The position numbers and the translations under genes were made by a program. This document shows positions 54,479 through 57,565 of a stretch of DNA of 64,000 bases, one piece after another (position 1 is the first letter of the stretch; each line of letters begins with the position of its first letter). The notes beneath the pieces were generated by a model. That model was not told where the DNA came from. It made no database searches and was given only the letters and a program-made list of their open reading frames with translations. Source of the stretch: Candidatus Latescibacterota bacterium (GTDB taxonomy: Bacteria > Latescibacterota > UBA2968); NCBI GenBank assembly GCA_022821275.1, contig JAJEDY010000024.1, forward strand, positions 1-64,000, given 5' to 3'.

Positions 54479-57400
54479 ATGAGTCTTTCAGTGAAAGCGC
54501 CGTGGCATAAAAGTTCGTGGGATGCGTTTGTGCAAAAGGGGTTGCCCGAATTGTTGGCGGATCGGGTATCGCTGGCGGGGTATCGGGTGGTGTCGGTGGA
54601 TGAATATACCTGTGAATTGCATCTCGCGATTCAGGGGGGGCAAGAGGTTGTGTACAAAAATATCCCTCAGCCCGACGAGTGGGGGCGGTTTAAGGTAGAT
54701 GGCTTTTTTCTAACGGTGGTTCCCGCGCCGACTGATGTGGATTTGGCGCGTGCTAAAATTCGGTGTGTAGGCGAGCAAGTGCGCGATTATATTGCCGAGC
54801 GGTTGGAAAATATGCCAGAGATGTTGGAAGAAGCAGTTGAAACCTGGATGCCGTTGGGAGATTGGATCCACACATTTTTTATGGAAGAACCCACATCGCA
54901 TTGTTTGCAGGCGACCAATCTGCAGGATATGTACGTTCATTTGCGGCGGGTGACGTTGATCCCAATTATCGGTGAGGCCGATGAGGGGGTAGAGAATTAC
55001 TATCATCCGTCGCACGATGGGCGGGTTTGTCCTTATTGCACACCCGAGGGACCGAATCTCGCGCGAATTTTAGAGGTGGCTCAAGGGGCGACGATTCGCG
55101 ATGGCAAGCTGGTGATTGAAGACGATGCCCCTGAAAAGCGGCTGGGTATAGGTGCTTCGGTGGTTCCGTTTTTGGAACACAATGATACCAATCGCGTTTT
55201 GATGGGTGTGAATATGATGCGGCAGTGGATTGGCGCGCCAGGTCCCGATATGCAGCGCGATGAACAGGGCGTGTGGCACGCGTACCACGCGCAATATGAT
55301 GGCAAAACACTGGAGTCGGAACCCGCGCTGGTGCAGACGGGATGTGAACCGAGCGATTCGCATTTTTGGACGGGTTACAATTTGCTGACAGCGTTTATGG
55401 CGTGGAATGGAGATACACACGAAGACGCAGTTGTGATCAGCGAATCGGCTGCGAACCGGATGATGCTGCCCAATCGCGTTGCGCCGGGCGATAAACTGAG
55501 CAATCGACACGGTTTTAAGGGGGTCGTGTCGCGCATTGTGCGAGATGAAGATATGCCCAGATTGTCGGATGGCACGCCTGTGGAACTTATTGTGAGTGTG
55601 TGTGGTTTGCCATCGCGGTTGAATATTGGACAGGTGCGCGAAGCTGTGGTCGGGCGCATTGCAAAGGCCGAGGGAGAGCCGGTTATTGTTCCCGCGCTCA
55701 ATGCGCCCAAAGACGGTGAGATACGCGCTCGGTTGAAGGCTTCAGGGCTGTCAGAAGATGGTATGGATGCGCTGACGGTGAATGGGGAGACGCTACCGCG
55801 CCGCACCACAGTGGGGTGGGTGTATTGGGGGCGCACGTTGCATCTGGCTGCAGATAAAATTCATATGGGTGTAAAGCCGGGGCAACGCGATCAAGGGGTG
55901 GGGGAGACAGAGTTTTTGGCGTTGCGAGAAGCGGGTGCTTTTGGGGTGATTGGCGATTTGTTCAATACGTGCGCGGTGGATCGAGATGATGCCGATACGC
56001 TGGCTGACCGCGTCGTTGCGGGGCCTGTTGCGCCCGCTACGCCGTCCCCTCAGTTTGATGATCTGATTGGACATTTGTCAAAAGGTGGGGTGGCTGTAGC
56101 GCTGGCTGAACGCGATGCCGATTTTTCGCTGAAGCGCGATGGGGATGTCGCGCTTGCGCGTTCGGTTCCACATCCGTGGCTGCCGGGGCATGCGTTGACC
56201 CATGTGAGTGGGGGAGATGTGCCCCGCGCATTGCGAGAGGCCAATGACCGATTGGCGGAGATGATTGCCAATGGCGCGCCAGATGTGCTGGTGCATCGTG
56301 CGGTTGAAACGCTGTCTGAGCGGGTTCGCGCATTTTGCGAGTTGCCGCGTTTGCAATTTCAGGCGCGCGCGTTGTTCAGCGGGCGTTCGGTGGCTGTGCC
56401 TGCACCCGAATTGCGATACGATCAGGTCGGTGTGCCCGAAGAAATGGCGTGGACGTTGTTTGGGCCGTTTGCAGCGCGAGAGGTGGGGGCTGAAGAAGTG
56501 GATAGGCGGTCGAGAAAAGCTGAGAAAGCTCTGGATGCAGCAATGGCTAAGTTGTGGGTTGTGGTGCTTCGCAGCCCCGCGTTTTCGCCAACGGCTTTTG
56601 TGGCGTGTCGTCCGGTGCGCGTAGCGGGTGATGCGGTGCGCGTGAGTGTGGCGATTTGCAAGATGATGAATATGGATTTTGATGGTGATCAGGTGGCGAT
56701 TTTTGTGCCAGTGACGGAAGAAGGCCAGTGGTCGGCCGAAGAACATCTGTCGGCGGTGGCGCATCTGACGCGGGACCCGGGGTTGATTGCACGCGAGAAG
56801 GTACATCCGATGCACGACGCGCTGTTTGGTCTGGCGTATATGAGTATGACGGACGAGGGGTTGCAGGAGATTGCGGAGATTGTTGGCGATGAGGTTGAGC
56901 GAAAGGGGTTGTTTGTCGATAAGTATCAGGTGATGGGCTGGATGGCGGATGTGATGGCGCGCGATGGTGCGAAGGCGGCATTGGATCTGTCTGCGCGATT
57001 GTGGGATAGAGGGTTTGATGCCGCGCGCAAGACAGGGGCGTCGATGAGTGCGTTTATCGGTTCGTCGCTCGATTGGCCCGATCCGCCAGAGGGCGATGAT
57101 CCAGATGTCTGGCGCGATTATCCCGATGAGGTGTCGGCTGTGTTGGCTCAATTTCGCGGATATGACGACGATGATCTCGGGATTCCCGCGCTCCTGGTGG
57201 AATGTGGTGCGCGTGCCAATTGGCAACAAGTCAGACTTTATGTGGCTCCCCAGGGCGTGACTCAGAACGCCTGGGGTGGGGTCACACCCTTGAAGCGCGG
57301 TTTTCGAGAGGGGCTGACGCCAGAGGAGTTGTTTGCACGGGCGATTGGCGCGCGCTGGGGGTTGGCCAATACGCTTGCGGAGATGATGGCGATTCAGAGC

Positions 57401-57565
57401 GATCTGGAAACGCAGAGTGCGCCCGGTGGGTATGGCGTTTTTGCGCGGGCGCGCAGGTCGGATACGCCGGGTGTGGTATTTGCCCGCGCAGCGCAAAAGG
57501 GCGAGCGCGATCCGCTGACGGATGAGTATAGTCGGTTATTTGTGGGGTTACCGATGGAAGTGTAA
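54479..57565 (+). CDS. Compact single-chain RNA polymerase (fused beta/beta-prime catalytic cores)
   Basis: A 1,028-residue protein; the ATG follows a perfect AGGAGG. Beta-like part: [18 protein letters not shown] (C184), [14 protein letters not shown] (P230), E315-D316 in [15 protein letters not shown]339 and K347 in [12 protein letters not shown] (same spacing as E. coli K1065/K1073), [14 protein letters not shown], and [20 protein letters not shown]. Beta-prime-like part: FSGRSV (S634), R698 in LRSPAF, the metal site N731-M-D733-F-D735-G-D737-Q, a bridge-helix equivalent C909-GARAN, and GFREGL (941-946). The beta lobes, beta-prime zinc ribbon and clamp, and the trigger loop (GTQLTMRTFH-like) are missing. 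It should be an RNA polymerase core or relative, not the housekeeping enzyme. It is much shorter than Helicobacter rpoBC fusions; viral single-chain enzymes (YonO, crAss-like gp66) are functional analogues. Confidence 0.9.

Follow-up and report, generated by a model that had tools for sequence, protein, structure and literature searches.

An open reading frame at positions 54479-57565 (+ strand) of the 64,000-nucleotide stretch of DNA analysed here (the window) encodes a single-chain RNA polymerase of 1,028 residues, in which the beta part precedes the beta-prime part and, as the conserved motifs indicate, one chain bears both catalytic barrels. Directly upstream lies a gene for an ECF sigma factor, and we propose that the two proteins probably form an autoregulated holoenzyme, that is, a compact second cellular transcription system. 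Judging from its conservation, the single-chain protein is very likely an active DNA-dependent polymerase; the linked sigma, which we infer to bind it, is the probable specificity factor. The sequence features that speak for this reading are both halves of the enzyme, the catalytic residues, purifying selection, obligate linkage to sigma, co-variation of the two proteins and a conserved promoter.

The open frame that contains the polymerase gene runs from 54440 to 57565 (+) and would give 1,041 residues from the ATG at 54440. We take ATG 54479 as the right start because a ribosome-binding site, AGGAGG at 54467-54472 (+), lies six bases ahead of it, within the 17 nt that separate the sigma stop codon from the polymerase start, and because the homologues L001, L002, L004 and L083 begin at the matching residue. 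A preliminary description of this DNA had placed the start at the same ATG and had reported a 1,028-residue frame with beta signatures preceding those of beta-prime; all of the motifs that it quoted are found in the frame. Family residue numbers in this report are counted from ATG 54440 and exceed those of that description by 13; its K339 and K347 are K352 and K360 here, and they do correspond to E. coli beta K1065 and K1073.

Two of the three Pfam models that that description had proposed for a check, RNA_pol_Rpb2_6 (E 3.9e-40) and Rpb1_2 (E 7.7e-15), matched the polymerase, whereas the other, Rpb1_3, gave no separate match; Rpb2_3 was matched as well (E 1.6e-4). Among solved structures, the nearest chains belong to bacterial beta and beta-prime (beta 3.5e-43; archaeal B ~4e-30). 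Among the 45 homologues having the catalytic positions, K360 is kept in 44 and K352 in 38 (the others have R in five cases, A in one and T in one), and the aspartates of the DxDGD triad are kept in 43 (D746), 45 (D748) and 45 (D750). Conservation of the catalytic residues far exceeds chance.

The anatomy of the enzyme was mapped with a family profile of 35 members. The profile aligned, in order, with E. coli beta residues 446-580, 651-707, 792-820, 1054-1148 and 1177-1341, with a weak additional alignment to beta 119-147, and, again in order, with beta-prime residues 268-516, 559-639 and 715-795. On the + strand of the window, the fork region and the flank of the beta barrel are at 54740-55225 (family residues 101-262, like E. 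coli beta 446-580 and 651-690), the beta barrel DPBB-B and the beta C-terminus at 55358-56110 (residues 307-557, like beta 792-820 and 1054-1341), the clamp-helix hairpin at 56219-56344 (residues 594-635, like beta-prime 268-309), the beta-prime barrel DPBB-A with NMDFDGDQ at 56375-56851 (residues 646-804), and the bridge helix at 57320-57403 (residues 961-988). According to this profile map, the polymerase keeps the fork, both barrels, the beta C-terminus, the clamp-helix hairpin, part of the funnel and the bridge helix, and the beta C-terminus therefore leads almost directly into the beta-prime clamp helices. The map also shows that the beta lobes, the flap, the beta-prime zinc finger, most of the clamp, the jaw and the canonical trigger loop are missing; apart from the clamp, these are the parts by which a canonical bacterial core is recognized. 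Where a flap of about 230 residues would be expected, between E328-D329 and G350, all members have 20-34 residues (about 20 in the window copy). Past the bridge helix, a conserved tail alone remains (R1003, P1010, L1026, L1033), which may be a reduced trigger loop; a conserved catalytic histidine was not seen in this C-terminal tail of the homologues. In known enzymes, the lost parts serve pausing, termination, anchoring of sigma region 4 and control of nucleotide addition. The parts that are kept are those needed for catalysis and for docking of sigma region 2.

The clamp-helix hairpin is the docking place of sigma region 2 in known holoenzymes. It aligned without gaps over 42 residues, with N602 and R604 each kept in 43 of 46 members and P614 in 44 of 46. 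The positions equivalent to E. coli beta-prime R275 and E295, which we take to be sigma contacts, are alanine in 30 of 35 and 28 of 35 members, respectively, and this counts against docking of sigma on the polymerase. Because a canonical-RpoC profile built from ten sequences detected the clamp helices at E < 0.01 in just six of 35 members when applied to single sequences, our assignment of the hairpin rests on the family-profile alignment and the structural model. The latter, an AlphaFold prediction from a 25-row alignment (pLDDT 71, pTM 0.64), is confident for the barrel segments, DPBB-A among them, for the hairpin, which is modelled as two helices (596-610 and 615-632), and for the bridge helix (961-988), with low confidence for residues 156-298. 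An alignment of trimmed phage pieces, whose beta rows looked misaligned, was left out of the folding, and a prediction from only eight family rows (pLDDT 46) was set aside. Foldseek ranked bacterial beta-prime chains first against the model (E 2.8e-21), at a TM of about 0.3. At a pTM of 0.64, the model does not prove the packing of the barrels.

As so much is missing in comparison with RpoB plus RpoC, one could suppose that the gene is a decayed, functionless rpoB/rpoC fusion, and a few broken copies and one scar do exist in the family. The scar is found in G028, a relative without the system (L309, G028:C44, ~5326 onward), where the promoter motif described below stands before a remnant of the polymerase, its last 32 residues (E 1.6e-7); it is a deletion scar from which both sigma and the body of the polymerase are gone, and this joint loss speaks for the two genes as one system. 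The window gene itself, when compared with eight relatives by the Nei-Gojobori method (dS 0.23 to 2.3), gave dN/dS values of 0.148-0.200, and it is under purifying selection. More than 40 homologues, with identity down to 36%, have intact frames and conserved catalytic residues, and the host genome (5.66 Mb, 101 contigs) contains complete rpoB and rpoC genes on contig 40. Selection, the intact homologues and the complete rpoB and rpoC of the same genome together rule out decay, to which we assign a negligible probability.

Homologues are 36-93% identical to the polymerase and were found in 22 of 64 Latescibacterota, 17 of 291 Armatimonadota and 11 of 85 genomes of a third phylum, counts that are lower bounds, few candidates having been scored per genome. 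(Of the loci named here, L001-L004 and L006 are from Latescibacterota and L005 is from Armatimonadetes.) The family is rare, since some 320 further genomes outside the host's phylum yielded one match only. Full-length members have 985-1,238 residues (median 1,041, with mechanical starts), and several homologues sit on single-contig chromosomes of 5.7-7.6 Mb.

The preliminary description, although right about the polymerase signatures, had missed the sigma partner and the conserved promoter, and also that the flap is lost and that the family extends over three phyla. The sigma gene (53874-54461, +) encodes an ECF sigma-70 factor with regions 2 and 4 and without region 3 (TIGR02937, 5.8e-35, 120.4 bits against a cut-off of 42.9; Sigma70_r2 and r4_2). 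A TTG start at 53874 is favoured over the mechanical GTG at 53847: the sigma homologues begin at the residue equivalent to the TTG, and the GTG is disfavoured because it overlaps the promoter motif. Inspection of the sequence revealed a ribosome-binding site, AGGAGG, at 53861-53866 (+). Wherever a locus retains the N-terminal half of the polymerase (46 distinct loci), it has an ECF sigma gene in the same orientation upstream of the polymerase gene, and in most cases the two genes are adjacent or overlapping. In the third phylum the gap measures some tens to a few hundred bases, and four loci of the window's genus have an extra gene between sigma and polymerase (L001:6180-7973, L002:2683-4476, L083:7508-9370 and L004:6722-7912); by inspection, three of these share an intervening gene that resembles an ABC transporter subunit, and the fourth is unrelated. 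No neighbour besides sigma is common to the whole polymerase family, and the flanks of 80 viral RNA polymerase loci contain no ECF sigma.

For comparison with this constant linkage, 24 ECF genes score above the TIGR02937 cut-off in the whole 5.66-Mb host genome. In a tree with 14 other ECF factors of the genome, the linked sigmas group together as a separate clade (support 0.966). Distances among sigmas and among polymerases are correlated (Pearson r = 0.86; equalled in 0 of 2000 permutations), a co-variation that can come partly from the shared descent of neighbouring genes. The linked sigmas carry signature residues beside region 2.2 (W66 and R64 in 37 of 37, W72 in 34 of 37) and in the linker (W123 in 29 of 37). 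Region 2.2 retains the usual D56 and Q59, so that the sigma could still bind the host core.

An ECF-type promoter motif, TGAACC-N14-GGTGTC, precedes the sigma gene at 53826-53851 (+) and is the sole exact match in the genome. The family version, TGAACY-N14-GGTGTC, occurs within 200 nt upstream in exact form at 28 of 47 loci and with at most one mismatch at 41 of 47 (one locus is counted twice among the 47), as compared with 0.2% of shuffled regions at the latter threshold; L080 and L077 have an exact copy slightly beyond 200 nt. The predicted transcription start is at ~53858, which would leave sigma a leader of about 16 nt, and the conservation and placement of the motif would fit an autoregulated sigma promoter. 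In the host and in three sister species, the exact motif occurs once per genome. Since one-mismatch sites in the host genome number 35, the same as in the reversed control (35), and show no enrichment outside the gene pair's own promoter, no wider regulon can be claimed; in the regulon search, exact matches elsewhere likewise did not exceed the reversed-pattern control and mostly fell inside coding frames. L290 has a further exact copy of the motif (G689:C1:36389-36414), which shares the extended start TGAACTTTCGTC and is located near the start of a gene for an ABC-2 permease-like membrane protein, a possible extra target.

Upstream of the promoter in the window are a gene for a DksA/TraR-type zinc-finger protein (51697-52731, +) and, overlapping it, one for a conserved 320-residue protein (52715-53677, +). 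Either could be an accessory of the system; a family-wide accessory role was rejected, as the two genes are present only in the window's order. Further upstream, the segment 47315-51508 holds two restriction-modification pairs, an N6/N4 methylase with an MjaI-type and with a BglII-type endonuclease, and a quinolinate phosphoribosyltransferase gene between them. Just downstream of the polymerase, at 57762-60547, are a BlaI-type repressor and a long M56 peptidase-like protein with repeated TonB C-terminal units. Rfam models had no match in 40000-64000.

We propose that the dedicated ECF sigma would dock through its region 2 onto the retained clamp-helix hairpin and direct the single-chain enzyme to TGAACY-N14-GGTGTC promoters. 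Because the best promoter of this kind stands ahead of the sigma gene itself, the gene pair would be positively self-regulated, presumably through its own transcription by the holoenzyme. The main weakness of this proposal is that the promoter is like any ECF promoter and could be read by the host core, which its ECF-like spacing would fit equally well. The absence of the flap, which anchors sigma region 4 in known holoenzymes, also counts against it. One could envision a different scenario, in which the sigma, a self-activating ECF factor of the ordinary kind, works on the host core and switches on the operon, and the polymerase is an effector that operates independently of it, for instance on stress, plasmid or phage templates. 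Such a division of labour would agree with the spacing of the motif, the ordinary appearance of region 2.2, the flapless polymerase and the restriction of the motif to the operon; moreover, an ECF gene elsewhere in the host (G000:C31:24130-24763), which has counterparts in sister species, likewise follows a near-match, TGAACT-N14-GGTGTA, at a distance of about 120 nt. However, obligate linkage across three phyla, together with co-variation, exceeds what a mere activator needs, and the polymerase has kept the clamp-helix hairpin. We therefore regard a sigma that serves the host core as rather unlikely and favour the single-chain holoenzyme.

Maximum-likelihood trees (852 columns, without an archaeal outgroup) recovered the family as monophyletic (100) and the canonical bacterial RpoBC as a separate group (100), and joined the family weakly to phage RNA polymerases with fused beta and beta-prime parts (FastTree 0.76, UFBoot 61). 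Because of the long branches, the placement of the origin is uncertain. The preliminary description had called the ancestry bacterial and not viral, with a phylogeny including RpoB/RpoC as a check; similarity to RpoB/RpoC, far above that to YonO, agrees with this, but the family forms a long branch outside the sampled canonical RpoBC, and the phage enzymes are its possible sister, so that a phage-related origin is possible. Armatimonadota branch basally within the family as a paraphyletic group that encloses Latescibacterota and the third phylum, and two placements across phyla suggest transfer or misbinning. The patchy distribution, these placements and the weak sister position could be explained if the enzyme were a domesticated polymerase of a phage or mobile element, akin to the fused enzymes of uncultured phages and with a present role other than general transcription. 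We consider this improbable: the phage, plasmid and viral-contig (IMG/VR) collections contain no full-length homologue, the fused enzymes of phages lack a linked sigma and for the most part either exceed the family in size or stop after DPBB-A, and no conserved mobile-element genes lie near the polymerase. A viral origin by direct match was also rejected, since no viral copy was full-length and the first viral matches were ordinary two-gene phage RNA polymerases; PMC7481178 describes two-gene enzymes of phages.

The viral searches brought to light at least 39 contigs on which a phage RNA polymerase combines beta-type and beta-prime-type domains within a single frame of 1,445-2,973 residues, some with long intein-like insertions (L100, L115, L126, L132-L134, L140-L145, L150-L167, L170-L174 and L176-L179). 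Vibrio phage D181 has a single-chain RNA polymerase gene (L181:3203-6223; 1,006 residues) annotated merely as a hypothetical protein, and Salmonella phage Arash has another (gp206, L180:1721-6298; 1,525 residues); the two are 59% identical over their shared part and both stop soon past DPBB-A. Like the family, these phage enzymes (at least 39 IMG/VR loci, Arash gp206 and D181) have beta followed by beta-prime in one frame and similarity to its profile. They differ in being phage-encoded, in their size range (1,006-2,973 residues, several stopping after DPBB-A), in having no linked sigma and in an identity of 23-28%.

The family is homologous to RpoB/RpoC over the fork, DPBB-B, the beta C-terminus, the clamp helices, DPBB-A, part of the funnel and the bridge helix, with the same catalytic residues. 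Whereas E. coli has two chains of 1,342 and 1,407 residues, the family has one of about 1,030, which bears out the earlier estimate of about one third of RpoB plus RpoC; the family lacks lobes, flap, zinc finger, jaw and canonical trigger loop, and it is extra to the normal enzyme. The RpoB-RpoC fusions of Helicobacter and Wolbachia share the beta-to-beta-prime order in one chain, but they are full-length (~2,850 residues) and the sole RNA polymerase of the cell. YonO of phage SPbeta, shown to be a DNA-dependent RNA polymerase, likewise has a single chain, two barrels and DxDGD (PMC5467207). It matches the family profile at DGD only (-0.1 bits), which rules out membership by sequence, and the annotated genes within ~10 kb of its locus include no ECF sigma. 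YonO-like genes occur on some bacterial chromosomes, where the authors speculated that they serve special gene sets (PMC5467207). The enzymes of crAss-like phage phi14:2 (gp66) and of P23-45 (gp64/gp96) are also single-chain, two-barrel RNA polymerases, but they are viral, and their description reports no significant sequence similarity to other families beyond DxDxD (PMC10770324). The open-licence literature contained no cellular match, in agreement with the preliminary statement that no described bacterial enzyme of this architecture was known, and it yielded no account of a single-chain enzyme of cells that has a sigma factor as its partner. Provisionally, we take the polymerase-sigma system to be undescribed.

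Bacteria are taught to possess one RNA polymerase. On balance, we lean towards the view that some bacteria, from at least three phyla, possess two complete systems for DNA-dependent transcription, the ordinary one and a self-regulating holoenzyme of a single-chain polymerase and its dedicated sigma, with a promoter class of its own. If this is true, a chromosomal second RNA polymerase of one third the size would show how much of the enzyme can be removed with sigma-dependent initiation still in place; no smaller sigma-dependent RNA polymerase is known to us, and this one would work without a flap. The two genes could then provide an orthogonal expression tool, and the family would be a cellular counterpart to the single-chain phage enzymes in the debate on the origin of multisubunit polymerases.
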